From positions 1 through 64,000 of the forward strand of contig NZ_RBXP01000004.1 in NCBI RefSeq assembly GCF_003634965.1: DNA of 64,000 bases. Direction: 5' to 3'. Position numbers and translations under genes: made by a program. The notes below the pieces were generated by a model, which was not told where the DNA came from, did no database searches, and saw nothing but the letters and a program-made list of their open reading frames with translations. Source of the stretch: Azonexus fungiphilus. GTDB taxonomy: Bacteria > Pseudomonadota > Gammaproteobacteria > Burkholderiales > Rhodocyclaceae. This document shows positions 10,301 to 64,000 of the stretch, piece after piece (the stretch's first letter is position 1; every line of letters begins with the position of its first letter).

Positions 10301-10909
10301 CTGCCGCGCCTGGCCGAGACGCCGGTGCTCAGCGCGCTCGATCTCGGCGCGCCGCCACCGCCGCTGGCCGGTGCCCTGGCCGCGCTCGCCGAGTGGGCGG
10401 TCGCTGTCGGCGACGACTTCATCGCCCGCCGTTGCCGCGAGGCCGCTGCCGACAGCCTGCTCGGCGTCAGCCTCGCCCTGCCCGGGCCGACCGGTGAAAG
10501 CAACCGCCTGTGGTTCGCGCCGCGCGGCCGGCTGCTCTGCGTTGCCGCCGGTGAGACCGGGCTGCTCGCCCAGCTGGCTGCGGTGCTGGCGACCGGCAAC
10601 CGGGCGGCGCTGGTCGACGGCGATCCGGCGCGGGCGCTGCTCGCGCGCCTGCCCGAGGCCTTGCGCCAGGCGATCGAGCTGCGTGGCGAAGGCGATTTCG
10701 CCGGCCTCGCCGGCGTCCTCGTCGAACGGGGTGGGGCGGCGACGCTGGCGCCGCGCCTGGCCGCCGGCGACGGTCCGCTGCTGCCGCTGCTGGTGGAAAC
10801 CGCCGAGGCTGGCCGCTACCCGCTGTACCGCCTGCTCTGCGAACGCGTGCTCAGCATCAACACCACCGCCGCCGGCGGCAATACGACGCTGATGACGCTC
10901 GGCGCCTGA
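7310..10909 (+). CDS. putA: Bifunctional proline dehydrogenase / P5C dehydrogenase PutA
   Basis: PutA oxidises proline to glutamate in two steps: an FAD proline dehydrogenase passing electrons to quinone at the membrane, and an NAD-dependent P5C (glutamate semialdehyde) dehydrogenase. The 1199-residue protein has an N-terminal helical arm, a PRODH barrel to about residue 470, an ALDH-fold domain with general base Glu780 (IAETGGQ) and nucleophile Cys814 (GQRCSALR), and a C-terminal extension ending NTTAAGGNTTLM, a conserved PutA tail. There is no ribbon-helix-helix DNA-binding domain at the N-terminus, so it is not an autoregulator as in E. coli; regulation probably falls to the divergent Lrp-type protein. 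Confidence 0.95.
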   Translation: MNEILRQAIRAAHRRDESQCVAALCDEVRALPRDAGQVADLARQLVEAVRRQRRHASGVDHLMHEFSLSSQEGVALMCLAEALLRIPDALTVDRLIRDKISRGDWAAHLGGSPSLFVNAATWGLLLTGKLVATHSENALAGALGRLIVRGGEPLIRKGVDFAMRLLGQQFVMGEQIEAALQRSAANEARGYGHSFDMLGEAALTEADARRYADAYAQAIHAIGRASGGRGPVAGPGISIKLSALHPRYQRSQRERVSSELLARLKALLLLAKGYDIGVNIDAEEADRLELSLDLLEALAGDPELAGWHGLGFVVQAYQKRCPALIDALIDLARRSRRRLMIRLVKGAYWDSEIKRAQVDGLADYPVYTRKTHSDLAYLACAGRLLAAPDAIYPQFATHNAHTLASIYQMAGARGVRDYEFQCLHGMGEPLYDNVVGADKLARLCRIYAPVGTHETLLPYLVRRLLENGANSSFVNRIVDDAVSIDELVEDPLLAVAREGGTRHPAIPLPPALYGGERVNSAGVDLADETTLAELARSFAAGAGKRWQAVPLVGGHAVVGQPGLAVSNPAARGEIVGSVVEATVADVATAAAIAEQASAGWHATAPAQRAAILLRAGDLLEARRDEILALCIREAGKTWPNAVAELREAVDFCRYYGQQLKTGNFRDSATPPGPVACISPWNFPLAIFVGEVSAALAAGSPVLAKPAEQTPLIAALAVEVLHQAGVPGEVLQFLPGRGDVVGAALTADARVRGVVFTGSTEVARLINRNLAPRPGVRLIAETGGQNAMIVDSSALPEQVVQDVLQSAFDSAGQRCSALRVLCLQQDIAGRVSEMLKAAMAELVIGNPAALATDVGPVIDEAARAALCAHIETMRRRGRPVHQLPLPEACAGGCFVPPTLIEIESLADLEAEVFGPVVHLLRFDGRQLPALVEAINATGYGLTLGIHSRIDESIDAIVAAARVGNIYVNRNMVGAVVGVQPFGGEGLSGTGPKAGGPLYLPRLAETPVLSALDLGAPPPPLAGALAALAEWAVAVGDDFIARRCREAAADSLLGVSLALPGPTGESNRLWFAPRGRLLCVAAGETGLLAQLAAVLATGNRAALVDGDPARALLARLPEALRQAIELRGEGDFAGLAGVLVERGGAATLAPRLAAGDGPLLPLLVETAEAGRYPLYRLLCERVLSINTTAAGGNTTLMTLGA

Positions 10910-42797: not shown

Positions 42798-42950
42798 GGT
42801 CGTGGACAGGGCGTTGCAGGCGCTGCCAGCATGCCGCCCCTTGATTACATCGACATGACAGCGGCGATGGTCGTGGCGCCGGGTGTCACCGAACTGAAAC
42901 ATGCGCCGCCTAAACTGGGTTTCCCGTATCCGTTTCCCCGGCCGCCATCC

Positions 42951-48782: not shown

Positions 48783-49858
48783 CGATGCGACAGCGGTTTT
48801 TCGTACCAGGCCCGGGTCGAATTGACCATCCTTACCAGCCAGAGCATCACCGGCACCTCGATCAGCACGCCGACGACGGTGGCCAGCGCGGCGCCGGAGT
48901 CGAAGCCGTAGAGGACGATGGCAACGGCGACGGCGAGTTCGAAGAAATTCGAGGCGCCGATCATCGTCGCCGGGCCGGCGACGTCGTGCCGGACAGCGAA
49001 CTTGCGGCAGAGCCAGTAGCCGATGGCGGCGATCAGCAGGCCCTGCAGCAGGATCGGCACGGCGAGCATGGCGATGATCAGCGGCTGCTTGACGATGGCC
49101 TCGCCCTGGAAGGCAAAGAGCAGCACCAGGGTCGCCAGCAGCGCCGCGATGGTGAACGGTGCGATACGGTCGACTGCCTGTTTGAAGGCATTTTCACCGC
49201 CACGCAGGAAATGCCGGCGCAGCGCCTGGGCGATCGCCAGCGGGATGACGATGTACATCACCACCGACAGCAGCAGCGTGTCCCAGGGCACCGGGATCGC
49301 CGAGACGCCGAGCAGCAGCGCGACGATCGGAGCGAAGGCGAAGACCATGACGAGGTCGTTGAGCGCCACCTGCGAAATGGTGAAGTTGGCGTCGCCTCGG
49401 CACAGGTTGCTCCAGACGAAGACCATCGCCGTACATGGCGCCGCGCCGAGCAGGATCAGGCCGGCGATGTAGCTGTCGAGCTGGTCGGCCGGCAGCCAGG
49501 GGGCGAAGACATGGCGGATGAACAGCCAGCCGAGCGCGGCCATGGTGAACGGTTTGACCGCCCAGTTCACGAACAGCGTGATGCCGATGCCGGCCTTCTG
49601 CTCGCGGACCTCGCTGATCGAGGCGAAGTCGATCTTCATCAGCATCGGCACGATCATCACCCAGATCAGCAGGCCGACCGGCAGGTTGACCTGGGCGTAC
49701 TCGATCCGCCCGAGTGCCTGGAAAGCCGCCGGAAACCACTGGCCGAGCAGGATGCCGGCGACGATACAGAGCACCACCCAGAGGCTCAGGTAGCGCTCGA
49801 AGAAGCCGATCGGCGCTCCGGCCGCCTGTTTCGCGGCAACACCGCACTGCGCGCTCAT
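48779..49858 (-). CDS. arsB: Arsenite efflux permease ACR3
   Basis: The 359-residue protein is a ten-helix arsenite permease of the ACR3 family: PVGLLIWVMIVPMLMKIDF, LGAAPCTAMVFVWSNLCRGDANFTISQVALNDLVMV (with the conserved Cys needed for transport), and GASNFFELAVAVAI. It exports As(III), which ArsC supplies by reducing arsenate. It overlaps arsC upstream and sigZ downstream by four bases each, a fully coupled operon. The symbol acr3 is also used. Confidence 0.95.
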   Translation of the reverse strand: MSAQCGVAAKQAAGAPIGFFERYLSLWVVLCIVAGILLGQWFPAAFQALGRIEYAQVNLPVGLLIWVMIVPMLMKIDFASISEVREQKAGIGITLFVNWAVKPFTMAALGWLFIRHVFAPWLPADQLDSYIAGLILLGAAPCTAMVFVWSNLCRGDANFTISQVALNDLVMVFAFAPIVALLLGVSAIPVPWDTLLLSVVMYIVIPLAIAQALRRHFLRGGENAFKQAVDRIAPFTIAALLATLVLLFAFQGEAIVKQPLIIAMLAVPILLQGLLIAAIGYWLCRKFAVRHDVAGPATMIGASNFFELAVAVAIVLYGFDSGAALATVVGVLIEVPVMLWLVRMVNSTRAWYEKPLSHR

Positions 49859-50355
49859 GCCGATGCCTCCGCATGGATCTTGCGCGCCGCGTCGCGGACT
49901 TCGACGGTCGACAGGCTTGCCAGCGGCAATTTGACGAAGGCCTCGACGCGCTCGCGCAACTGCGCATAGGCTTGTTCGAAGGCTGCGCGGCGGGCTTCCA
50001 GTGGTTCGACATGCGCCGGATCAGCGATGCCCCAGTGCGCAGTGGTGGGGTGGCCAGGCCAGATCGGGCAGGTTTCGCCGGCCGCCGCGGCGCAGACGGT
50101 GAAGATGAAGTCGATCTGCGGTGCGTCGCCGCCGACGAACTCGTCCCATGACTTGCTGCGCGCCTCGGGCAAGGGGATGCCGTGCTTCGCCAGGGTCTCC
50201 AGTGCCAGCGGATTGACCGTGCCGGTCGGCCGGCTGCCGGCCGAAAAGGCGCGGATGCGGCCGCCGCCGAGATGGTTGAACAAGGCCTCGCCGAGGATGG
50301 AGCGGGCCGAGTTGCCGGTGCATAGCACCAGCACGTTGAAGGGTTTGCGGTTCAT
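49855..50355 (-). CDS. arsC: Arsenate reductase ArsC, low-molecular-weight phosphatase type
   Basis: ArsC reduces As(V) to As(III). The 166-residue protein has the LMW-phosphatase P-loop CTGNSAR near residue 12 (CX5R), SAGSRP and the conserved FVGGDAP-IDFIFTVCAAA with a candidate redox Cys, matching thioredoxin-coupled ArsC rather than the glutaredoxin type. A Cys-rich CAAAAGETCP completes the pattern. It overlaps arsR and acr3 by four bases each. Confidence 0.93.
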   Translation of the reverse strand: MNRKPFNVLVLCTGNSARSILGEALFNHLGGGRIRAFSAGSRPTGTVNPLALETLAKHGIPLPEARSKSWDEFVGGDAPQIDFIFTVCAAAAGETCPIWPGHPTTAHWGIADPAHVEPLEARRAAFEQAYAQLRERVEAFVKLPLASLSTVEVRDAARKIHAEASA

Positions 50356-50687
50356 GCTTTCTCCGTCGGCGTACAGGCATGTTGCTGCTCGCCGCAGGGC
50401 AGGCCGGCGCAGCAGTGCTCGGTCAGGTAGCCGAGCAGGTCGTTCATCGCCGGATAGTCGGCGATGTAGAAAATGAAGCGCCCCTCCTGGCGGCTGGCGA
50501 TCAATCCGGCACGGCTGAGCTCCTTGAGATGGAAGCTGAAGCTGCCGTTGGCCTCGGTGTCGAGTTCGGCGGCCAGGTCGGCGACGCAGAGCCCGCCCTT
50601 GCCCGCCTGGACCAGGCGACGATAGACGCGCAGCCGGGTTTCATGAGCGAGTGCCTTGAGTGCGGTGGTGGCAAGTTCGATATCCAT
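50352..50687 (-). CDS. arsR: Arsenic-responsive repressor ArsR
   Basis: A 111-residue winged-helix ArsR/SmtB protein (ALAHETRLRVYRRLVQAGKGGLCVADLAAEL...GSFSFHLKELSRAGLIASRQEGRFIFY). Its C-terminus ends in CCAGLPC (Cys92, Cys93, Cys98), resembling the C-terminal three-cysteine As(III) site known from the Acidithiobacillus ferrooxidans ArsR (there CC-x5-C). The start at 50687 (MDIELATTAL) fits; a longer frame adds 12 residues. It heads the operon and should repress it until As(III) binds. Confidence 0.93.
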   Translation of the reverse strand: MDIELATTALKALAHETRLRVYRRLVQAGKGGLCVADLAAELDTEANGSFSFHLKELSRAGLIASRQEGRFIFYIADYPAMNDLLGYLTEHCCAGLPCGEQQHACTPTEKA

Positions 50688-50705
50688 ATTTATAGAATAA
50701 TCGAA
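50676..50705 (-). promoter_or_regulatory. Candidate ArsR operator
   Basis: TTCGAT (50676-50681) and ATCGAA (50700-50705) form an inverted repeat flanking an A/T-rich core around the arsR start. ArsR-family operators are such A/T-rich dyads, but this one is only a candidate. Confidence 0.4.
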
Positions 50706-50753
50706 ATGATGATCTGCGGGCAAGGGCGACCGGCTGCGCTCGCCCTTGGCGCG

Positions 50754-52514: not shown

Positions 52515-52546
52515 TTTGTTACAGCCTGTCATCCGGCTGTAACAAA
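52515..52546 (+). promoter_or_regulatory. Pho box and overlapping dyad upstream of pstS
   Basis: CTGTCATCCGGCTGTAAC (52526-52543) matches the PhoB box consensus of two CTGTCAT-like heptamers four bases apart. It overlaps a perfect 12-bp inverted repeat (TTTGTTACAGCC 52515-52526 / GGCTGTAACAAA 52535-52546). It lies about 55 bases upstream of the pstS ATG, a proper distance for PhoB activation. Confidence 0.82.
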
Positions 52547-52597: not shown

Positions 52598-53596
52598 ATG
52601 TTCAAGCAGTCCAAGCTCGTTTCCGCGCTCGCCGTTGCCGGCGTCGCCCTGTTTGCCCAGGCCGCTCACGCGCAGGTCGTCAAGATCGACGGCTCCTCGA
52701 CCGTCTACCCGATCACCGAAGCCGTCGCCGAAGATTTCCAGAAAGCCAAGAAGAACGCAGTCAAGGTGACGGTCGGCATTTCCGGTACCGGTGGCGGCTT
52801 CAAGAAGTTCTGCCGTGACGAGACCGATTTCCAGAACGCCTCGCGTCCGATCACCGCCAAGGAAATGGAAGACTGCAAGGCCGCCGGCGTCGAATACGTC
52901 GAAATGCCGGTCGCCTACGACGCGCTGACCGTCGTCATCAACCCGAAGAACAGCTTCCTCAAGCAAGCCACCGTCGAAGAGCTGAAGAAGCTGTGGGAAC
53001 CGGCTGCCCAGGGCACGATCACCAAGTGGAACCAGGTCAACCCGGCCTGGCCGGACGCGCCGGTCAAGCTGTTCGGCGCCGGCGCCGATTCGGGCACCTT
53101 CGAATACTTCACCGAAGCCATCGTCGGCAAGGCCAAGTCCTCGCGCGGCGACTACACCGCTTCCGAAGACGACAACGTGCTGGTCCAGGGCGTCTCGCGC
53201 GACGTCAATGGCATCGGCTACTTCGGTTACGCCTACTACGCCGAGAACATGTCTCGCCTGAAGGGTCTGCCGATCGTCAATCCGAAGACCGGCAAGGCGG
53301 TCGAACCGTCCGGCGCCAACGTCGAGAACGGCAGCTACGTGCCGCTGTCGCGCCCGATCTTCGTCTATGTCAAGGCCAAGTCGCTGCAGAAGCCGGAAGT
53401 CCGCGAGTTCCTCGAGTTCTACATGAAGAACGCCGAGAAGCTGGTCCGCGAAGTCAAGTACGTGCCGCTGCCGAAGGCCGCCTACGAAGGCAACCTGAAG
53501 CACGTCAAGGACAAGAAGTACGGCACCGTGTTCGGTGGCAAGAACGAAGTCGGCATCACCATCGAAGAGCTGATGAAGCGCGAAGCCAAGATGTAA
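52598..53596 (+). CDS. pstS: Phosphate ABC transporter, periplasmic binding protein PstS
   Basis: PstS captures phosphate in the periplasm for PstCAB. The 332-residue protein has a signal peptide ([19 protein letters not shown], cleavage before QVV), then [17 protein letters not shown], a phosphate-binding pattern, and [14 protein letters not shown]. It is longer in the domain-1 segment than E. coli PstS, as in the PstS family of many betaproteobacteria. It is the first gene of the Pho operon and is followed by a hairpin that may lower expression of the membrane genes. Confidence 0.95.
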
Positions 53597-53605
53597 GCAG
53601 CACCT

Positions 53606-53625
53606 GACGGACCCTTCGGTCCGTC
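53606..53625 (+). terminator. Stem-loop between pstS and pstC
   Basis: GACGGACC (53606-53613) pairs with GGTCCGTC (53618-53625) around a CTTC loop, without a T-run. It probably stabilises the pstS mRNA 3' end or attenuates transcription so the binding protein is made in excess. Confidence 0.6.
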
Positions 53626-53679
53626 GCCGCAAGGGGCCGGTCCGCATGGGCAGGCCCCGTTTCCGAAAGGAACCTTCAA

Positions 53680-54627
53680 GTGAATCACGCCATGTCCGCA
53701 AATTCCGCCTCCGACCTGCCGCAGGTCAGCGACCGCCTGGCCAAGAACGCCATGCGCCACGTCAGCGAGCGCCTGATCGAGAGCGTCCTCTTCGCCGCCG
53801 CCGCGGTGTCGGTGCTGACGACGATCGGCATCGTCTATGTGCTCGTCACCGAGTCCATCCATTTCTTCCAGAACGTCAGCATCGTCGAGTTCCTCACCGA
53901 CACGCAGTGGACCCCGCTGTTCGACGATGCCCACTACGGCATCATGGTGCTCATCTCGGGCACCCTTGTTTCTTCCGGCGTGGCGCTCGCCGTCGCCATC
54001 CCGATGGGCACGATCATCGCGATCTACCTGTCGGAGTTCGCCAATCCCAAGGTCCGCGAAGTCGCCAAGCCGGTGCTTGAACTGCTCGGCGGCATTCCGA
54101 CCATCGTCTTCGGCTATTTCGCGCTGTTGATCGTCACCCCGCTGCTGCAGAAGATCTTCCCGGAGCTGCCCGGCTTCTCGCTGCTCTCGGCCGGCCTGGT
54201 GATGGGCATCATGATCGTTCCCTACATCGCCTCGCTGTCCGAGGACGCGATGCGCGCGGTGCCGATGAGCATGCGCGAAGGCTCCTACGCGATGGGCGCG
54301 ACCAAGCTCTACACCGCGATCCACGTCGTCGTCCCGGCCGCCGTCTCCGGCCTGGCCGCTTCCTACATCCTGGGCATCTCGCGGGCTGTCGGCGAAACCA
54401 TGATCCTGGCGGTCGCCGCCGGCATGCAGCCGAACCTGACCTGGAATCCGATGGAACCGGCCGCGACGATCACCTCCTACATCGTCCAGGTGGCGCTCGG
54501 CGACCTGCCGCACGGCTCGATCGGCTACCAGACGATCTTCGCCGCCGGCCTGACGCTGCTGCTGATCACGCTGCTCTTCAACATTCTCGGCCAATGGCTG
54601 CGCCGTCGCTTCCGTGAGGCTTACTAA
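53680..54627 (+). CDS. pstC: Phosphate ABC transporter permease PstC
   Basis: PstC is one of the two inner-membrane channel subunits of the high-affinity phosphate importer. The 315-residue protein has a long first helix (about 35-60) and five more in the permease core, with the ABC-permease EAA-type loop (SMREGSYAMGATKLYTAIHVVVPAAVSGL). The GTG at 53680 follows AAGGAA by seven bases; an ATG four codons later is possible. It is adjacent to pstA by one base. Confidence 0.95.
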   Translation: MNHAMSANSASDLPQVSDRLAKNAMRHVSERLIESVLFAAAAVSVLTTIGIVYVLVTESIHFFQNVSIVEFLTDTQWTPLFDDAHYGIMVLISGTLVSSGVALAVAIPMGTIIAIYLSEFANPKVREVAKPVLELLGGIPTIVFGYFALLIVTPLLQKIFPELPGFSLLSAGLVMGIMIVPYIASLSEDAMRAVPMSMREGSYAMGATKLYTAIHVVVPAAVSGLAASYILGISRAVGETMILAVAAGMQPNLTWNPMEPAATITSYIVQVALGDLPHGSIGYQTIFAAGLTLLLITLLFNILGQWLRRRFREAY

Positions 54628-54628
54628 C

Positions 54629-55564
54629 ATGCAACCGATGACTACCGAACAAATCCGCGTGCTGATCGCCCGCGGCAAACTCAAGGACACGGTCTTCCAG
54701 GCCCTCGGCATCATCTGCCTGGCGATCGGCCTGCTGGTGATCTTCCTGCTCGTCGGCGACATGCTGATGCGCGGCCTCGACCGCCTCAACCTCGAATTCT
54801 TCACCGAGTTCGCCTCGCGTCGCGCCTCCCAGTCCGGCATCCTCTCGGCCTGGGTCGGCACGCTGCTGGTGATGCTGGTCACCGCCGCCGCCGCCGTGCC
54901 GCTCGGCGTCGCCGCCGGCATCTACCTCGAGGAATACGCCAAGCGCAACTGGATCACCGACATCATCGAGATCAACATCACCAATCTCGCCGCCGTCCCG
55001 TCGATCGTCTATGGCCTGCTCGCGCTCGGCATCTTCGTCTACACCTTCGGCTTCGGCCAGAGCATCCTCTCGGCCGGCCTGACGCTGGCGCTGCTCATCC
55101 TGCCGATCGTCATCGTCGCCACTCGCGAGGCGATCCGGGCGATCCCGTCGATGATCCGCGAAGGCTCGATGGCGGTCGGTGCGACGCGCTGGCAGACCTG
55201 CCGCTACCACATCATCCCCTACGCCATGCCCGGCATCCTGACCGGCGTGATCATCGGCCTCGCCCGTGCGATCGGCGAAACCGCCCCGATCATCACCATC
55301 GGCGCGCTCACCTTCATCGCCTTCCTGCCGCCGGTGCCCTTCACCGCCACCGGCATGGATGGCGCGTCGGCCGGGCTGTTCGACTGGGTGATGTCGCCCT
55401 TCACGGTGATGCCGATCCAGATCTTCAACTGGACCTCGCGTCCCGACCCGGCCTTCGAGGTCAACGCCGCCGCTGCCGGCTTCGTGCTGATGGGCATGGT
55501 CCTGTCGATGAACGCCGTCGCCATCTGGTTGCGCTACCGGATGCGCAAGAACATCAAGTGGTAA
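54629..55564 (+). CDS. pstA: Phosphate ABC transporter permease PstA
   Basis: PstA is the second channel subunit. The 311-residue protein has a first helix at about 25-45 and a permease core with the EAA-type loop [45 protein letters not shown]. It starts at the ATG at 54629 ([10 protein letters not shown]), one base after pstC, and is followed by a GGTCGACC repeat before pstB. Confidence 0.95.
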
Positions 55565-55567
55565 GTG

Positions 55568-55605
55568 CACGGTCGACCGCCGGAAACGCCGAAAAACCGA
55601 ATTTC
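55568..55605 (+). repeat. GGTCGACC repeat copy between pstA and pstB
   Basis: CGGTCGACCG (55570-55579) is followed by CCGGAAACGCCGAAAAACCG, the same core-plus-A-run layout as the copies at 22.8 and 59.1 kb. It lies in the middle of an operon, so it is unlikely to be a full terminator here. Confidence 0.5.
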
Positions 55606-55620
55606 GAAATGGAACCGCAA

Positions 55621-56400
55621 ATGCAAACTCACGACAAACCCCAACTCAAGGCCGAGGCCCGCAACCTCAACTTCTACTACGGCGAAGCCAAGGCCCTGAA
55701 GAACATCAACATGCCGATCTACGACAAGAAGGTCACCGCGCTGATCGGGCCTTCGGGCTGCGGCAAGTCGACCTACCTGCGCAGCTTCAACCGCATGCAC
55801 GACCTCTACCCGGGCAACCGCTACGAGGGCGAGATCCGCTTCTACCCGGACAACACCAACCTGCTGTCGCCGGAAGTCGATCCGATCGAAGTGCGGATGC
55901 GCGTCGGCATGGTCTTCCAGAAGCCGAACCCCTTCCCCAAGACGATCTACGAGAACGTCGCCTACGGCCTGCGCGTGCGCGGCGAGAGCAACAAGCGCAT
56001 CCTCGACGAGAAGGTCGAGCAGGCGCTGCGCGGCGCCGCCATCTGGGAAGAAGTGAAGGACCGCCTGCAGGACCTGGCGCCGAACCTTTCCGGCGGTCAG
56101 CAGCAGCGCCTGTGCATTGCCCGCGCGCTGGCCACCGATCCCGAACTGCTGCTCTTCGACGAGCCGACCTCGGCGCTCGACCCGATCGCCACCGGCGCCA
56201 TCGAGGAACTGGTGCACGAACTGAAGAAGCGCGTCACCATCCTCATCGTCACCCACAACATGCAGCAGGCAGCGCGCGTTTCCGACTACACCGCCTACAT
56301 GTACCTGGGCGAGATGATCGAGTTCGGCAAGACCGATGAAATCTTCATCAAGCCGAACGACAAGCGTACCGAAGACTACATCACCGGCCGCATGGGCTGA
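55621..56400 (+). CDS. pstB: Phosphate ABC transporter ATPase PstB
   Basis: PstB hydrolyses ATP to drive phosphate import. The 259-residue protein has Walker [10 protein letters not shown], the Q-loop VFQKPNPFP, the ABC signature [16 protein letters not shown] and Walker [14 protein letters not shown], all normal for PstB. The ATG at 55621 (MQTHDKPQ) is chosen; one at 55609 is possible and adds four residues. It is followed closely by phoU. Confidence 0.95.
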
Positions 56401-56411
56401 GGAGAACGAAA

Positions 56412-57101
56412 ATGCCTGATTCCCTGCACGTATCCAGCCAGTTCGACGAGGACCTCGCCCGCCTGCGCACGCATGTGCTGCAAATGGGCGGCCTGGTCGA
56501 AACCCAGATCTCGTCGGCGATCGATGCCTATTCGACGGGCGAGGTCGCCAGCGTCAAGAGCATCATCGAGACCGACCGCAAGGTGAACGACCTCGAGAAG
56601 GCGATCGACGACGACTGCGCCCACATCATCGCCAAGCGCCAGCCGACCGCCTCCGACCTGCGCCTGGTCCTCGGCATCAGCAAGATCGTCACCGACCTCG
56701 AACGCGCCGGCGACGAAGCCAAGAAGATCGCCAAGGGCGTCCGCCGCATCTACGAAGCCGGCCACATGCCGACCCAGTACGGCGTCGGCATCCGCCACCT
56801 GGCCGAAGCCGCGCTGACGATGGTGCGCCAGGCGCTCGACGCCTTCGCCCGGCTCGACGGCAAGCTTGCGCTCAGCGTCATCCGTGCCGACGAGGACGTC
56901 GATGTCGAATTCAAGTCGATCATCCGTCAGTTGATCACGCACATGATGGAAGACCCGCGTACCATTACGACCTCGATCGACATCATCTCGATCTCGCGGG
57001 CCATCGAACGCATCGGCGACCATGCCAAGAACATCTCCGAGCAGGTGGTGTTCGTCGTCGAAGGCCGCGATATCCGCCATGACAAGGAGGCCATCAAGTG
57101 A
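56412..57101 (+). CDS. phoU: Phosphate signalling protein PhoU
   Basis: PhoU links PstB to PhoR and keeps the Pho regulon silent when phosphate is high. The 229-residue protein has the PhoU helical-bundle repeat: RLRTHVLQMGGLVETQISSAIDAY and a second copy (AEAALTMVRQALDAFARLDGKLALSVI), and metal-cluster-type residues ERAGDEAKKIAKGV and ERIGDHAKNISEQVVFVVEG. The stop overlaps the phoB GTG start by four bases. Confidence 0.95.
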   Translation: MPDSLHVSSQFDEDLARLRTHVLQMGGLVETQISSAIDAYSTGEVASVKSIIETDRKVNDLEKAIDDDCAHIIAKRQPTASDLRLVLGISKIVTDLERAGDEAKKIAKGVRRIYEAGHMPTQYGVGIRHLAEAALTMVRQALDAFARLDGKLALSVIRADEDVDVEFKSIIRQLITHMMEDPRTITTSIDIISISRAIERIGDHAKNISEQVVFVVEGRDIRHDKEAIK

Positions 57102-57784
57102 CACCGACGATTCTGGTCGTCGAGGACGAACCGGCGATTCAGGAACTGGTTGTGATCAACCTCAAGCACGCCGGCTTCCTCGCCGTGCGTGCCGCCAGCG
57201 CCGAAGAAGCCGATTCGGCGATCCGCGCCGCGTTGCCCGACCTGGTCATTCTCGACTGGATGCTGCCCGGCCAGTCCGGCGTTGCGCTGGCCAAGAAGAT
57301 CCGCGGCGACGAACGCACCCGCGAGATCCCGATCATCATGCTCACCGCCCGCGTGCATGAAGAAGACAAGGTCCAGGGCCTCGACGCCGGCGCCGACGAC
57401 TACGTGACCAAGCCCTTCTCGCCGAAGGAGCTGGTCGCCCGCGTCCGCGCCGTGCTGCGCCGCCGCGCCCCGCACCTGGCCGGCGAAGCGGTCGAGGTCG
57501 GCGACCTCCAGCTCAACCCGGCGACCCATCGCGTGCTCGCCGGCGGCCAGCCGATCGAGCTCGGGCCGACCGAGTTCCGCCTGCTCTTCTTCTTCATGAC
57601 CCACGCCGAGCGCGTCTACACCCGCGCCCAGCTGCTCGACGAAGTCTGGGGCGACCACGTCTTCATCGAGGAGCGCACCGTCGACGTCCATATCCGTCGC
57701 CTGCGCGCCGCCCTCGAATCGACCGGCCACCACGAGCGGGTCGAAACCGTGCGCGGCACCGGCTACCGTTTCCGGGGAGCCTGA
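57098..57784 (+). CDS. phoB: Phosphate response regulator PhoB
   Basis: PhoB is an OmpR-type regulator that binds Pho boxes when phosphorylated by PhoR. The 228-residue protein has a receiver domain (about 1-120) with phospho-acceptor Asp in VILDWMLPGQSG and a Lys in VTKPFSPKEL, and a winged-helix DNA-binding domain (about 130-228: LGPTEFRLLFFFMTHAERVYTRAQLLDEVWGDHVFIEERTVDVHIRRLRAAL). It begins with GTG overlapping phoU. It should regulate this operon and the one at 60.9 kb. Confidence 0.95.
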   Translation: MTPTILVVEDEPAIQELVVINLKHAGFLAVRAASAEEADSAIRAALPDLVILDWMLPGQSGVALAKKIRGDERTREIPIIMLTARVHEEDKVQGLDAGADDYVTKPFSPKELVARVRAVLRRRAPHLAGEAVEVGDLQLNPATHRVLAGGQPIELGPTEFRLLFFFMTHAERVYTRAQLLDEVWGDHVFIEERTVDVHIRRLRAALESTGHHERVETVRGTGYRFRGA

Positions 57785-57789
57785 CGGCA

Positions 57790-59070
57790 GTGCAGCGAGC
57801 CCTGGCTTACGGCGCCTTCACCGCCGTCATTGCATTCCTGCTCGGTTATTTCGGGGAAACCTGGATGGGCTGGGTGCTCTTCTACATCGGCCTCAGCGTG
57901 CACCTGGCGATGCACTACCGCAACTTCTCGCGCCTCGAACGCTGGTCGCACAAGCCGGTGCTCGACGCCAGCCTCGAAGGCGACGGCGAGTGGGATGCGG
58001 TCTTCCGCCGCCTCTACCGCCACGAGAAGGAACTGCTCGAGAAGATCGAGCACCGCGAGCGCGATATCGCCCGCCTGATTGCCGCCGTGCATGCGATGAA
58101 CGACGGCATCGTCCTGCTTGACGGCGAGTTCCGCATCCAGTTCTGCAACAAGACCGCCGAGCGCCAGCTCGACATCGACAGCAGCACCGACCGCGGCGCC
58201 GCCATCGCCAACATCGTCCGCCAGCCGCGCTTCATCGACTACCTCGGCAAGGGCGATTTCACGCGGCCGCTGGTGCTCCGCCTCGACCGCTACTTCGAGC
58301 GCGTGCTCTCGCTCTACCTGATCGCCTACGCCGAAGACCACTGGCTGCTGCAGGTCAAGGACATCACCCAGACCGACCGCCTCGACAGCATGCGCCGCGA
58401 CTTCGTCGCCAACGTCTCGCACGAGCTGCGCACGCCGCTGACCGTGCTCTCCGGTTTCGTCGAGACGCTGCAGGAAATCGAACTCGACGCCGACTCGCGC
58501 CGCCACTACCTGCAACTGATGGGCGAGCAGTCGCAACGCATGCAGTCGATCGTCCAGGACCTGCTGACGCTGTCGTCGATCGAATCGGCACCGCCGCCGG
58601 AAGACCAGCCGGTGGACATGGCCAGCCTGGTGGACAAGCTCTACCGCGACGCCGTCGCACTCTCCGCCGGCCGCCACGACATCCGCCTCGACAGCGACGG
58701 CCAGGGCGACCTGCTCGGCGCCGAATCGGAACTGGTCAGCGCGCTTGCCAACCTGGTCGCCAATGCCGTCCGCTACACCCCGGCCGGCGGCACGATCACG
58801 CTGATCTGGAAAATCTCCGCCGAAGGCGCCGAATTCGCCGTCCAGGATACCGGCATCGGCATCGACCCCAAGCACATCCCGCGGCTGACCGAACGCTTCT
58901 ACCGCGTGGACCGCGGCCGCTCGCGCGACGCCGGCGGCACCGGCCTCGGCCTGGCGATCGTCAAGCACTCGCTCAACCGCCACCAGGCAACGCTCGAGAT
59001 CACCAGCAAACCCGGCGAAGGCAGCCGCTTCGCCACCCGCTTCCCGGCCAGCCGCGTCACCGGCCTCTGA
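57790..59070 (+). CDS. phoR: Phosphate sensor histidine kinase PhoR
   Basis: PhoR phosphorylates PhoB under phosphate limitation. The 426-residue protein has two N-terminal membrane helices (about 5-45), a PAS domain (about 95-195), the phospho-acceptor His in FVANVSHELRTPLTVLSGFVETL and a C-terminal ATPase domain with NLVANAVRYTPAGG and GTGLGLAIVKHSLNRH. There is no large periplasmic domain, as expected for PhoR. It begins with GTG five bases after phoB and ends the pst-pho run. Confidence 0.94.
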   Translation: MQRALAYGAFTAVIAFLLGYFGETWMGWVLFYIGLSVHLAMHYRNFSRLERWSHKPVLDASLEGDGEWDAVFRRLYRHEKELLEKIEHRERDIARLIAAVHAMNDGIVLLDGEFRIQFCNKTAERQLDIDSSTDRGAAIANIVRQPRFIDYLGKGDFTRPLVLRLDRYFERVLSLYLIAYAEDHWLLQVKDITQTDRLDSMRRDFVANVSHELRTPLTVLSGFVETLQEIELDADSRRHYLQLMGEQSQRMQSIVQDLLTLSSIESAPPPEDQPVDMASLVDKLYRDAVALSAGRHDIRLDSDGQGDLLGAESELVSALANLVANAVRYTPAGGTITLIWKISAEGAEFAVQDTGIGIDPKHIPRLTERFYRVDRGRSRDAGGTGLGLAIVKHSLNRHQATLEITSKPGEGSRFATRFPASRVTGL

Positions 59071-60657: not shown

Positions 60658-60841
60658 AGTGGTCTAACAGTTATTTCCCAGCAAAAACGTCCGGGTCATC
60701 AGCAATAACACGGGCGCGACTGGGGCACTTGTAAGGGTTTGAATGACATGGAGATTATCTGAAGCCCATCTCCTGATCAATCATCCGCCACATCCGGCAG
60801 TAGCCTGCCGCCGCCCGCCCGCACCGTCGCCTTTCATCATC

Positions 60842-60859
60842 GCGTCACGGCGCTGTCAC
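60842..60859 (+). promoter_or_regulatory. Candidate Pho box upstream of the plcP-like gene
   Basis: GCGTCAC (60842-60848) and CTGTCAC (60853-60859), four bases apart, follow the PhoB-box architecture of two CTGTCAT-like heptamers. The second heptamer is a six-of-seven match, the first a five-of-seven. It ends about 33 bases before the ATG of the metallophosphoesterase gene. Confidence 0.6.
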
Positions 60860-60892
60860 GAAGCCTTCATCCGGGCTGGCTATCGTCGGCGC

Positions 60893-61705
60893 ATGCCCAA
60901 AGTCAGAAGCCTGTTCCTCTCCGACATCCACCTCGGCACGCGGGCGTGCCAGGCGGAGCGGCTCCTTGATTTCCTGCGCGAGCACCCGGCCGAGCAGACT
61001 TTCCTGATCGGCGACATCGTCGATTTCTGGGCGATGAGTCGCAGCATCTGCTGGACCCAGGCGCAGAACACCGTCGTCCAGAAACTGTTGCGCCGGGCGC
61101 GTGCCGGCGAGCGTGTCGTCTTCATCCCCGGCAACCACGACGAGGTGTTGCGCGAATACTGCGGCATCGTCTTCGGCGAGATCGAGGTGGTCGACGAGAT
61201 GGTGCACGAAACCGCCGACGGTCGCCGTTTCCTGCTCATCCACGGCGACCAGTTCGACCAGGTGACGCGCCATCACCGCTGGGTCGCGGTGCTGGGCGAC
61301 AAGGCCTACGACCTGCTGGTCCGCCTCAACCACTGGCTGTCGTGGATCCGCCGCAAGCTCGGCCGGCCCGGCTACTGGTCGCTGGCCGGCTACGCCAAGC
61401 GGCGGGTCAAGACGGCGCTCAATTTCATCTTCGACTTCGAGGAATCGGCCGTCCATCACGCCCGCGAGCGCGGCCTCGACGGTGTCATCTGCGGCCACAT
61501 CCACTGGGCGACGATGCGCGAGATCGACGGCCTGGCCTACATCAACTGCGGTGATTGGGTCGATTCCTGCACGGCCATCGTCGAGCATTTCGACGGTCGC
61601 CTCGAACTGGTTGCCTGGGGCGCCGGCAGCGCCCTTCCCGAACCCCGGCGGCTGGCCGCCCCGGCCGCAGGGCCGGTCAACGAAAGCGAAACGGCAGAGG
61701 CCTGA
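60893..61705 (+). CDS. plcP: PlcP-like metallophosphoesterase (phospholipase C, lipid remodelling)
   Basis: A 270-residue calcineurin-type phosphoesterase: SDIHLGTRACQAERLLDFLR (Asp, His), IGDIVDFW, PGNHDEVLREY, LLIHGDQFDQV, a mid-region typical of this subfamily (AYDLLVRLNHWLSWIRRKLG.PGYWSLAGYAKRRVKTALNFI) and ICGHIHWATM plus YINCGDWVDSCTAIVEH. These stretches resemble the PlcP group, known in alphaproteobacteria and marine bacteria to cleave phosphatidylcholine or phosphatidylethanolamine during phosphate starvation, better than LpxH. Automatic annotation would probably call it UDP-2,3-diacylglucosamine diphosphatase. The ATG at 60893 lies near a candidate Pho box and two glycosyltransferases follow. 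Confidence 0.82.
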   Translation: MPKVRSLFLSDIHLGTRACQAERLLDFLREHPAEQTFLIGDIVDFWAMSRSICWTQAQNTVVQKLLRRARAGERVVFIPGNHDEVLREYCGIVFGEIEVVDEMVHETADGRRFLLIHGDQFDQVTRHHRWVAVLGDKAYDLLVRLNHWLSWIRRKLGRPGYWSLAGYAKRRVKTALNFIFDFEESAVHHARERGLDGVICGHIHWATMREIDGLAYINCGDWVDSCTAIVEHFDGRLELVAWGAGSALPEPRRLAAPAAGPVNESETAEA

Positions 61706-61706
61706 A

Positions 61707-62891
61707 ATGCGCGTATTGATGGTGTCGGATGTCTATTTCCCGCGGGTCAACGGCGTATCCACGTCGATCGAGACCTTCCGCCGCACGCTCGCCGGCGAAG
61801 GCGTCGAGGTCCGCCTGGTGGTGCCGCGCTACGGCGACGAGCCCGAGGCGCCGGGCATCGTCCGCGTCGCCGGGCGGCCGGTGCCGGGCGACCGCGAGGA
61901 CCGGCTGGTCGGCTGGCGGGCGATGCACGCGGCGGTGCACGCGGCAGCGGCCGAGTGCGACGCGATCCACATCCAGACGCCCTTCGTCGCCCACTACGCC
62001 GGCCTCGCCGCGGCCCGTCGCCACGGGCTGCCGGTGCTGGCCACCTACCACACGCTGTTCGAGGAGTACGTCGAGCATTACGCGCCCTGGCTGCCCGCCG
62101 GCTGGCTGCGACGCCAGGCGCGGGCGCTGTCGCGGCGCCAGTGCAACGGGCTCGACGCGGTTGTCGTGCCGTCGCGGGCGATGCGCGACCGGCTGCTCAC
62201 CTACGGCGTGCAGCGGCCGCTGCACGTGCTGCCGACCGGCATCCCGCTCGGCCAGTTCGCCGCCGGCGACGGCGCCGCCTTCCGTGCCGCCCACGGCATC
62301 GCGCCGACGCGGCCGGTGGCGCTGTTCGTCGGCCGCGTCGCCCACGAAAAGAACATCGGCTTCCTGTTCGAGGCGCTGCAGCATGCGCATCGCCTGCAGC
62401 CGCAGATCCTCCTCGTCGTGGCCGGCGAGGGGCCGGCGATGCCCGAACTGCAGGCGCGCGTCGCCGCCCTCGGGCTGACCGATTCGGTCCGCTTCATCGG
62501 TTATCTCGACCGGCGCAGCGCGCTGCCGGCCTGCTACGCGGCGGCCGATGCCTTCGTCTTCGCGTCGCGCACCGAGACCCAGGGCCTGGTCCTGCTCGAG
62601 GCGATGGCCGCCGGCCTGCCGGTGGTCGCGCTGTCGGCGATGGGCACCGCCGACATCCTCGATGACGGCCGCGGCTGCCTGACGCCGCCCGACGACCCGC
62701 AGGCTTTCGGTGAGGCGCTCGGCCACCTGCTCGCCTACCCCGGGGCCTGGGGCCACCTGGCGCGCTCGGCGCTGGACTGCGCACGCGACTGGTCGGACAC
62801 GGCGATGGCGGCGCGGCTGGCGACGCTCTACCGTCAGCTGGCGACGGCGAAAAATGCCCGTTTTGCGGTGTCGACCGCAAAACCCGCCTGA
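61707..62891 (+). CDS. Family-4 glycosyltransferase, possible diacylglycerol glucosyltransferase
   Basis: The 394-residue protein has a GT-B fold: an N-terminal MVSDVYFPRVNGVSTSIETF typical of family GT4 and a C-terminal nucleotide-sugar domain with FVGRVAHEKNIGFL and the EX7E motif ETQGLVLLEAM. It resembles MgtA/PimB- and diacylglycerol-glycosylating enzymes. Its start is one base after the PlcP stop. In other bacteria a GT next to PlcP (Agt) makes glycolipids from the diacylglycerol that PlcP releases; the same use is inferred here. Its last codons lie within a GGTCGACC-like hairpin (62861-62882). Confidence 0.8.
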   Translation: MRVLMVSDVYFPRVNGVSTSIETFRRTLAGEGVEVRLVVPRYGDEPEAPGIVRVAGRPVPGDREDRLVGWRAMHAAVHAAAAECDAIHIQTPFVAHYAGLAAARRHGLPVLATYHTLFEEYVEHYAPWLPAGWLRRQARALSRRQCNGLDAVVVPSRAMRDRLLTYGVQRPLHVLPTGIPLGQFAAGDGAAFRAAHGIAPTRPVALFVGRVAHEKNIGFLFEALQHAHRLQPQILLVVAGEGPAMPELQARVAALGLTDSVRFIGYLDRRSALPACYAAADAFVFASRTETQGLVLLEAMAAGLPVVALSAMGTADILDDGRGCLTPPDDPQAFGEALGHLLAYPGAWGHLARSALDCARDWSDTAMAARLATLYRQLATAKNARFAVSTAKPA

Positions 62892-62908
62892 ATCCGGGAG
62901 AACGCCCG

Positions 62909-64000
62909 ATGCTCGAGATTGCCTTCGTCACCGAAACCTACCCGCCGGAAGTCAATGGCGTCGCCATGACCGTCGGTCGCCTGGTCGGCGGCCTGCGCGA
63001 ACGCGGCCACCGCGTCGAGGTGCTGCGTCCGCGCCAGGGCGCCGACGATGCTGCCGGCGAGCACGATTTTCCGTTGCCGGGGGCGCCGCTGCCCGGCTAT
63101 CCCGGGCTGCGCCTCGGCCTGCCCGCCGGGCGCGCGCTGCAGCGCCGCTGGCGCGCCCGCCGGCCGGACCTGGTCCATGTCGTCACCGAAGGGCCGCTCG
63201 GCTGGTCGGCGGTGAGCGCCGCACGCCGCCTCGGCATCCCGGTGACTTCGGGCTTCCACACCAACTTCGACCGCTACTGCGTGCATTACGGCGTCGGCTG
63301 GTTGCGCCCGGCGCTGGCCGCCTACCTGCGCACCCTGCACCGGCGCACGCTGGCGACGCTGGTACCGACCGCGGCGCTGGCCGCCGACCTGGCCGGCGAG
63401 GGCGTGCCCGGCGTGCGCGTGGTCGGCCGTGGCGTCGATGCCGGCCTGTTCGACCCGGCCCGGCGCAGCGCCGCCTTGCGCGCCGCCTGGGGCGCCGGCG
63501 AGGCCGACCCGGTCTGCCTTTACGTCGGCCGGCTGGCGCCGGAAAAGAACCTGGCGCTGGTCGAGCGCTGCTTTGCCGCGCTCCGTGCCGAGCATCCCGG
63601 GGCGCGCCTGGTCTGGGTCGGCGACGGGCCGTCGGCGGCGCGTCTGACGGTCGACCACCCGGAACAGCATTTTTCCGGCATGCGCCACGGCGAGGACCTC
63701 GCCGCCCACTACGCCAGCGCCGACCTGTTCCTCTTTCCCAGCCTCAGCGAAACCTACGGCAACGTGGTCGCCGAGGCGATGGCCAGCGGCCTGCCGGTGG
63801 TTGCCTACCGCAGCGCGGCGGCGGCCGAGCTGATCGACGATCGCGCCAACGGCCTGGTTGCGGCGCCCGGCGACGAGGCCGCCTTCATCGCCGCCGCCCG
63901 CTGGGCGCTGGCCGATCGCCCGCGCCTCGCCGGCATCGCCGGGCGGGCCCGCGCAGCGATGCTCGGGCGCAGCTGGCCGGCGGTTGTCGCCGCCTTCGAG
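62909..64000 (+). CDS. Family-4 glycosyltransferase, 3' end outside the window
   Basis: An open frame from the ATG at 62909, preceded by GGGAG, runs to the window edge (364 codons, no stop). It begins IAFVTETYPPEVNGVAMTVGRL, contains TSGFHTNFDRYCVHYGVGWL, the donor-site VGRLAPEKNLALV and the EX7E motif ETYGNVVAEAMASGLPVV. This pattern resembles GDP-mannose- or UDP-sugar-dependent lipid glycosyltransferases (MgtA, PimB and SqdX types). It is probably in the same operon as plcP and may add a second sugar. About 10-40 residues are likely missing. The product and sugar are not established. Confidence 0.82.
   Translation, partial: MLEIAFVTETYPPEVNGVAMTVGRLVGGLRERGHRVEVLRPRQGADDAAGEHDFPLPGAPLPGYPGLRLGLPAGRALQRRWRARRPDLVHVVTEGPLGWSAVSAARRLGIPVTSGFHTNFDRYCVHYGVGWLRPALAAYLRTLHRRTLATLVPTAALAADLAGEGVPGVRVVGRGVDAGLFDPARRSAALRAAWGAGEADPVCLYVGRLAPEKNLALVERCFAALRAEHPGARLVWVGDGPSAARLTVDHPEQHFSGMRHGEDLAAHYASADLFLFPSLSETYGNVVAEAMASGLPVVAYRSAAAAELIDDRANGLVAAPGDEAAFIAAARWALADRPRLAGIAGRARAAMLGRSWPAVVAAFE

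Follow-up and report, generated by a model that had tools for sequence, protein, structure and literature searches.

A predicted phosphate-responsive plcP-glycosyltransferase operon beside the pst-pho genes of Azonexus fungiphilus

The window analysed here, a stretch of 64,000 nucleotides (C13:1-64000) from the 3.55-Mb genome of Azonexus fungiphilus (completeness 99.99%), ends in a compact group of three genes encoding a calcineurin-like phosphoesterase (plcP) and two glycosyltransferases of family GT4 (GT1 and GT2). The group lies 1.8 kb downstream of phoR, which ends at 59070. GT1 begins 1 nt past the stop codon of plcP and the ATG of GT2 follows 17 nt past that of GT1, confirming the coordinates in the initial annotation of this stretch for a phosphoesterase of 270 residues and two GT4 genes behind phoR. 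GT2, complete at 375 amino acids, starts at 62909 and extends past the window to contig position 64036. We consider it highly likely that plcP-GT1-GT2 forms a PhoB-controlled operon for membrane-lipid remodelling in this Azonexaceae-type betaproteobacterium; the basis of this reading is the orthology of PlcP and Agt2, the conservation of the promoter and the co-occurrence of the genes. The elements of the locus are as follows:

60831..60870, + strand: Pho-box array of four TGTCAY-type heptamers starting at 60831, 60842, 60853 and 60864, in an 11-nt register (genus conservation and simulation)
60881..60886, + strand: predicted -10 hexamer TATCGT, 10 nt past the array and 6 nt before the ATG (genus conservation)
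60893..61705, + strand: plcP, PlcP-type phospholipase C of the calcineurin-like (Metallophos) superfamily, 270 aa
61707..62891, + strand: GT1, GT4 glycosyltransferase of a third clade, predicted diacylglycerol glucosyltransferase, 394 aa
62909..64000, + strand, continuing beyond the window: GT2, GT4 glycosyltransferase orthologous to Agt2 (PA0842), predicted glucuronosyl-diacylglycerol synthase

The phosphoesterase matches Metallophos (PF00149) in Pfam and is 54.2% identical over 238 residues to the protein of locus L036 and 51.3% identical over 269 residues to that of L033. From its neighbours, we take L036 to be the PA3219-PA3218 locus of Pseudomonas aeruginosa, and L033, where the gene adjoins bluB and LuxR/autoinducer-synthase genes, to be the SMc00171 PlcP locus of Sinorhizobium meliloti. 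The two references are 46.6% identical to one another, in agreement with the 46% given for this pair in PMC8528852. In a tree of 113 rows, thinned from 130 sequences, PlcP-type and LpxH-type proteins split with support 100, and the window protein falls on the PlcP side, within a 31-row clade whose rows of named class are betaproteobacterial save one of Lysobacteraceae (L113). Because the LpxH branches are long, as flagged by the tree program, the split leans on the motif and the profile cut-offs as well. The window protein carries GNHD, as do 120/120 PlcP-type sequences, where 10/10 LpxH-type sequences carry GNRD; it scores 42.7 bits against TIGR01854 (cut-off 190.35) and 46.7 bits against NF003743 (cut-off 134). 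A separate LpxH is encoded in the same genome (C2:254947-255630), above the TIGR01854 cut-off at 239.3 bits. On these grounds we reject an LpxH identity and assign the protein to PlcP; both its grouping and the presence of a separate LpxH bear out how the gene had initially been read. Residues D11, H13, D41, N81, H82, H117, H202 and H204, presumably the metal ligands of the calcineurin-like fold, are invariant in alignments of 10 and 22 rows. The initial annotation had also expected such a gene to be misnamed as LpxH-like, and indeed 25 of 36 matched records in a plasmid collection give the name 'UDP-2,3-diacylglucosamine diphosphatase' to the homologue, and 11 have no feature at that place.

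The two transferases belong to clearly different lineages. GT2 is 51.3% identical over 374 residues to the P. aeruginosa protein in L098, which adjoins plcR and a phospholipase gene and which we take to be the PA0842 locus. A tree of 82 rows, made up of 5 references and 77 of the 130 transferases collected (each row assigned beforehand to its best BLAST reference) and unrooted as to the sister order of its clades, resolves GT1-like (28 rows, support 100), Agt1-like (22 rows, 98) and Agt2-like (32 rows, 99) proteins; GT2 lies inside the Agt2 clade, GT1 in its own clade apart from Agt1. The sugar-binding motifs follow the same division, with FASxTETQG in 36 of 42 GT1-type proteins (six unmatched by the pattern), TDT or SDT in 42 of 45 Agt1-type proteins (SET in two, one unmatched) and ET in 41 of 43 Agt2-type proteins (two unmatched). 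GT1 of the window reads FASRTETQG, without the TDT(F/Y)G of the Agt1 type, and GT2 reads FPSLSETYG. PA0842 is Agt2, and according to PMC8528852 its expression in E. coli sufficed for glucuronosyl-diacylglycerol. We assign GT2 as an Agt2 orthologue that is best read as a predicted Agt2-type glucuronosyl-diacylglycerol synthase; two NDP-sugar dehydrogenases above cut-off are encoded in the genome.

GT1 is 32-33% identical to Agt1, Agt2 and GT2 (32% to Agt1) and 51% identical to a Thiodictyon transferase that adjoins its own plcP. Its second-best NCBIfam match, nearly full length, is the alpha-monoglucosyldiacylglycerol synthase model NF049988, at 131.5 bits against a cut-off of 400. Since the Agt1 and Agt2 references likewise fall far below the NCBIfam cut-offs, we dropped these scores, which are not diagnostic, as a guide to transferase function. 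Searches of PDB sequences with GT1 and GT2 return only general glycosyltransferase matches. From its place beside plcP and the parallel with P. aeruginosa, GT1 is most likely a diacylglycerol glucosyltransferase.

The promoter region of plcP holds the array CTTTCAT-CATC-GCGTCAC-GGCG-CTGTCAC-GAAG-CCTTCAT. The CTGTCAC-type two-heptamer site recognised initially (GCGTCAC-GGCG-CTGTCAC, 60842-60859) is real and forms the middle of this stronger, four-heptamer array, which at 20/24 is the best-scoring in the window (64 kb, both strands); none of 100 Markov-simulated windows reaches 20. In an ungapped alignment, anchored on the ATG, of 30 genus loci, one of them from the window genome and the rest from 29 others (G023, whose plcP is partial, contributes none), the heptamers lie at -62, -51, -40 and -29 relative to the ATG. 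The match to CTGTCAYN4CTGTCAY averages, out of 14, 10.47 at -40 (range 9-13), 9.80 at -51 and 9.57 at -62, with single loci down to 7 at -51 and 6 at -62. The mean match over all offsets is 4.01, and the z of 7.7 at -40 is not a probability, the loci being related. By itself, the two-heptamer pattern with two mismatches is near chance, with 22 sites genome-wide and 16 in the reversed control. The array exceeds chance because of its four heptamers and its fixed position in the genus, where 30/30 loci reach at least 9/14 at -40.

Between the array and plcP, the hexamer TATCGT is exact in 25/30 of these loci, and mean pairwise identity is 0.89 in the hexamer, 0.53 in the array and 0.27 farther upstream. 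An ATG stands at the place of 60893 in all 30 loci; a longer plcP frame from 60743 was rejected, as it would place the array inside the gene and as the ATG at 60893 is common to all 30. The 6 nt that separate the hexamer from the ATG show no Shine-Dalgarno sequence, from which a leaderless plcP mRNA is predicted. The best site within 250 nt upstream averages, out of 14, 12.33 for pstS (12 loci), 11.12 for plcP (24 loci) and 11.69 for a dgkA gene found in related clusters (16 loci; see below), and among the controls 8.79 for GT1 (24 loci), 8.82 for phoB (17 loci) and 8.20 for phoU (15 loci). None of these control loci has a site of at least 11 (0/24, 0/17 and 0/15, respectively), and random segments (n=690) average 9.20, with 2.8% at 12 or above. 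Taken by its letters and their conservation, plcP has a Pho-type promoter that is conserved in the genus.

The presence of the genes within the genus is concerted as well. Among the 36 genus genomes (G000-G035), those with PlcP (E < 1e-90) and those with GT1 are one identical set of 31; the five that lack both are G004, G013, G022, G024 and G032 (completeness 79, 96, 99, 93 and 83%). GT2 occurs in 28 of the 31 PlcP-bearing genomes and in 0/5 of the PlcP-less ones, transferases being sought at E<=1e-60; GT1 occurs without GT2 in G006, G010 and G023, which are 100, 91 and 74% complete.

Across the genome, the two-heptamer box with at most one mismatch occurs at only two sites, one before pstS and one (G000:C8:194007-194024, L216) between phnS2 and a gene that we take to encode a GntR-type regulator. 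The phnS2 product is a 2-aminoethylphosphonate binding protein (TIGR03261, 507 bits against a cut-off of 392.75). A three-heptamer pattern with up to three mismatches is matched 12 times, at 10 distinct places, compared with 1 in the reversed control; three of these places lie before plcP, before an OlsB-like gene and before a phoX gene, respectively. The OlsB-like gene (G000:C10:27552-28396, L214), followed by an acyltransferase gene, lies behind a Pho-type heptamer array; its product scores 168.7 bits against NF052554, below the cut-off of 350, and is above cut-off for PF13444. Ornithine lipid synthesis is thus probably phosphate-controlled too. The phoX site (G000:C10:65536-65563, L096; three mismatches) lies about 80 nt before a gene for a PhoX-type alkaline phosphatase (PF05787, 296.8 bits). 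The same motif, by these matches, marks recognisable phosphate-starvation genes in this genome. A further pair of Pho-box-like sites, facing each other at 42844-42901 of the window (12/12 on the - strand, 11/12 on the +), stands before what, by eye, we take to be an EAL-GGDEF protein; an EAL-type open reading frame (ORF; 8955-10814) also borders an olsA-olsB-dgkA2-agt2 cluster in L188.

The phosphate genes next to the operon comprise:

52526..52543, + strand: Pho box upstream of pstS (CTGTCATCCGGCTGTAAC, one mismatch; genome scan)
52598..59070, + strand: neighbouring pstS-pstC-pstA-pstB-phoU-phoB-phoR cluster (Pfam and recognition)

Pfam matches identify pstS (PBP_like_2), phoU (PhoU), phoB (Response_reg and Trans_reg_C) and phoR (PhoR, HisKA and HATPase_c), and the genes between pstS and phoU we take, by recognition, to be pstC, pstA and pstB. 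On the retrieved stretches of 13.6-19.9 kb, phoR accompanies plcP in 17/23 genus loci. Just before pst, on the - strand at 49855-50723, lie genes for a helix-turn-helix protein (PF12840, ArsR-like) and a PF01451 protein of the low-molecular-weight phosphatase/arsenate-reductase type, for which an arsenic role would be a guess.

We infer the following mechanism, in which the chemistry of PlcP and Agt2 is taken from cited work on relatives. At low phosphate, PhoR-PhoB would activate the four-heptamer promoter. PlcP, as a cytosolic, metal-dependent phospholipase C, would convert phosphatidylethanolamine and/or phosphatidylglycerol into diacylglycerol and the phospho-headgroup. GT2 would then transfer glucuronic acid from UDP-glucuronate onto diacylglycerol, giving the acidic glucuronosyl-diacylglycerol (GADG), and GT1 would transfer most likely glucose, from UDP-glucose, giving the neutral monoglucosyl-diacylglycerol (MGDG). 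The freed phosphate would become available for other uses, and the membrane would retain one neutral and one acidic lipid. The core of the phosphate-starvation lipid-remodelling role proposed initially is supported by the grouping of PlcP, the separate LpxH and the genus-conserved Pho-type promoter.

Other explanations of the locus have to be weighed against this operon. Were the phosphoesterase an LpxH-type UDP-2,3-diacylglucosamine hydrolase, the transferases would decorate lipopolysaccharide or another polysaccharide; the name carried by 25 of the 36 matched records, the weak matches to LpxH models and the fact that the sole PDB match at E<=0.001 is an LpxH speak for this. We regard it as scarcely credible in view of scores far below the curated cut-offs, the split in the tree, GNHD in place of GNRD, the LpxH above cut-off elsewhere in the genome and the Pho-type promoter. 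It is also very improbable that the cluster serves general stress or envelope remodelling and that its Pho-like repeats are bound by another regulator: the array is unclear outside the genus, as such a role might have it, but the same motif stands before the pstS, olsB-like and phoX genes, the regions upstream of GT1, phoB and phoU lack a site of at least 11, and phoR shares the stretch in most genus loci.

Closer to the proposed mechanism, PlcP-type remodelling could proceed with GT1 as a second-step enzyme acting on the product of GT2, or the reverse, yielding the diglycosyl lipid that the initial annotation had envisaged. The two transferases do occur together in 28/31 PlcP-bearing genus genomes and represent distinct GT4 clades, as two successive steps would allow. 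However, the existence of GT1 without GT2 in three of these genomes indicates that GT1 seems not to need the product of GT2, and in P. aeruginosa the two transferases serve to make two different monoglycosyl lipids. At five loci, GT1 alone lies within 4 kb of PlcP; this points the same way but is weaker evidence, because Agt2 may be encoded at a distance from plcP, the genome of L112 being an example. In PMC8528852, moreover, Agt2 alone sufficed for a monoglycosyl lipid in E. coli. With GT2 an Agt2 orthologue (51% identical to the PA0842-locus protein), the likelier outcome is a pair of monoglycosyl lipids, and we consider a diglycosyl one unlikely.

Several observations weigh against the PhoB-controlled remodelling operon itself. 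The plcP array fades or disappears outside the genus: a site of at least 11 occurs in 5/24 loci, and in the three of those five that belong to other groups (L104, L112 and L116), the site is on the other strand or at another distance. The box before phnS2 points toward the divergent regulator gene, and at 7 of the 10 three-heptamer places no connection with phosphate has emerged; one of these seven, itself among the three places with two mismatches, precedes an autotransporter-like ORF without a Pfam match. GT2 is missing from 3/31 genus genomes with PlcP. No characterised member of the GT1 clade was found, and among the references used none exceeds about 33% identity to GT1. Finally, Agt enzymes may be broad in donor use, as described for GTcp of Pelagibacter in PMC8231724, and Agt2 orthology therefore leaves the sugar of GT2 unfixed.

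In most genus relatives, the genes have a different arrangement. A gene for a diacylglycerol kinase (PF01219, about 138 aa) precedes GT2 in 16 of the 20 genus loci with GT2 on the same stretch; its alignment ends within 20 nt of GT2 in 14 of the 16 and 170 nt (L041) or 69 nt (L075) before it in the others. Upstream of this dgkA, TGTCAT is found at about -55 in 14/16 loci, and in 11/16 the best-scoring box lies at -76 and points to the divergent gene. The cluster kinase (DgkA2) belongs to a paralogue clade separate from that of DgkA encoded elsewhere (31 versus 11 rows, support 100), in a tree for which 12 loci were fetched for kinases outside the cluster and from which the E-value limit left out the L205 kinase of G006, a distant third DgkA type (39 bits). 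In the window genome, the only DgkA falls in the clade of those encoded elsewhere. This genome lacks about 1 kb that in the sister genome G008 holds a cyclic-nucleotide-binding gene (PF00027) and dgkA, and GT2 consequently follows GT1 directly; the three-gene operon is probably a derived fusion. What follows the cyclic-nucleotide gene is different in G006, a genome in which no GT2 was detected at E<=1e-60. DgkA2 may serve to turn excess diacylglycerol back into phosphatidic acid, for instance once phosphate is available again. Between GT1 and dgkA2, on the opposite strand, L046, L048-L053, L056, L101 and L190 encode a conserved protein of about 230 residues, secreted by its start, with ARPMxTDDARLTD...CQxESW (the L190 copy has no Pfam match); its gene is divergent from dgkA-GT2, with a Pho-like box lying there.

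The wider survey covered the best 80 of 582 candidate PlcP loci, a sample biased to close relatives. Within 4 kb of PlcP, GT1, DgkA2 or Agt2 is encoded in 20 of these 80 (18 Betaproteobacteria, 2 of unknown class), Agt1 in 37 (30 Alphaproteobacteria, 5 Betaproteobacteria, 2 unknown) and none of the four in 23. The genes olsB-GT1-dgkA2-agt2-plcP stand in a row in Rugosibacter (L114) and in Sulfuritalea (L116), the latter adjoining pstS and pstB. PlcP, GT1 and Agt2 genes are each present twice in G049 (L059, L060/L112 and L191), on contigs C7, C57 and C59, the second PlcP gene being counted with two internal stops. GT1- or Agt2-type genes (E<=1e-60) are present in 38 of 60 genomes, 3 of which (G046, G058 and G059) are without PlcP. 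Near dgkA2, agt2, GT1 or olsB, these genomes encode zinc-dependent phospholipase C-like proteins:

L188, 4126-4968: zinc-dependent phospholipase C-like gene (PF00882 scan)
L190, 5086-5913: zinc-dependent phospholipase C-like gene (PF00882 scan)
L193, 7378-8175: zinc-dependent phospholipase C-like gene

The PF00882 scan covered the G058 and G059 proteins, which score 74.3 and 75.3 bits, respectively, against a cut-off of 26.8. The L188 protein is matched at E<=1e-10 in exactly these three of the 60 genomes, within the same cluster, more distant PF00882 proteins not being sought. In G058, olsA-olsB-dgkA2-agt2 lies beside the PF00882 gene, and the clusters of all three genomes contain Pho-like boxes of 8 to 13 out of 14. 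This suggests that PlcP may have been replaced by an unrelated phospholipase in the three genomes. As a reading somewhat less likely than not, we envisage a modular cassette in betaproteobacteria of Rhodocyclales/Nitrosomonadales type, which would consist of GT1 as a third diacylglycerol glycosyltransferase family, Agt2, a dedicated DgkA2 that returns or meters diacylglycerol, OlsB and an interchangeable phospholipase, either PlcP or, where a lineage has no PlcP, a PF00882 protein, with a leaderless plcP mRNA from a PhoB promoter in the genus.

Very probably, as far as its genes and their neighbours can tell, the gene set beside the phosphate-sensing genes swaps phosphate-containing membrane lipids for sugar lipids at low phosphate. 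The pathway itself is already known from marine bacteria, alphaproteobacteria, methanotrophs and Pseudomonas, and is extended here to a group of betaproteobacteria that counts Accumulibacter (L104), known for phosphate storage, among its relatives. What is new is the gene combination, the third transferase clade (GT1), the dedicated kinase and the possible replacement of the phospholipase. Three predictions follow: a family of lipid glycosyltransferases not yet studied, a second diacylglycerol kinase that would oppose or regulate the pathway, and an alternative phospholipase. The gene at the head of the operon commonly carries the name of the lipid A enzyme LpxH. We found no publication whose title or abstract connects PlcP with Azonexaceae or Rhodocyclales, a third transferase, a cluster DgkA or PF00882 in this role, most subscription literature lying outside the search; plcP transcripts of the betaproteobacterium Methylotenera are mentioned in PMC9239053.

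With LpxH, PlcP shares the Metallophos superfamily, weak profile matches and a database name, but the window PlcP differs by GNHD in place of GNRD, by its position in the tree and by the presence of an lpxH elsewhere in its own genome. GT1 resembles the alpha-monoglucosyldiacylglycerol synthase of NF049988 over nearly its full length, yet is not a member by the cut-off of that model. The alphaproteobacterial plcP-agt systems of Sinorhizobium, Agrobacterium, Methylosinus OB3b and Pelagibacter, as described in PMC9239053, PMC8231724 and PMC4796936, have in common with the present operon PlcP, a diacylglycerol glycosyltransferase and the link to low phosphate. Their Agt1-type enzymes, however, mostly carry FPSxTDTFG, with Asp, where GT1 has FASRTETQG and GT2 FPSLSETYG, and form a separate clade from each. 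The PlcP-Agt1/Agt2 system of P. aeruginosa (PA3219, PA3218 and PA0842), described in PMC8528852, shares PlcP (54%), Agt2 (51%), a Pho-box promoter and the use of two transferases. In contrast to P. aeruginosa, the genes here form one operon, GT1, from another GT4 clade, takes the place of Agt1, and clusters related to the window operon add a second DgkA and sometimes OlsB.

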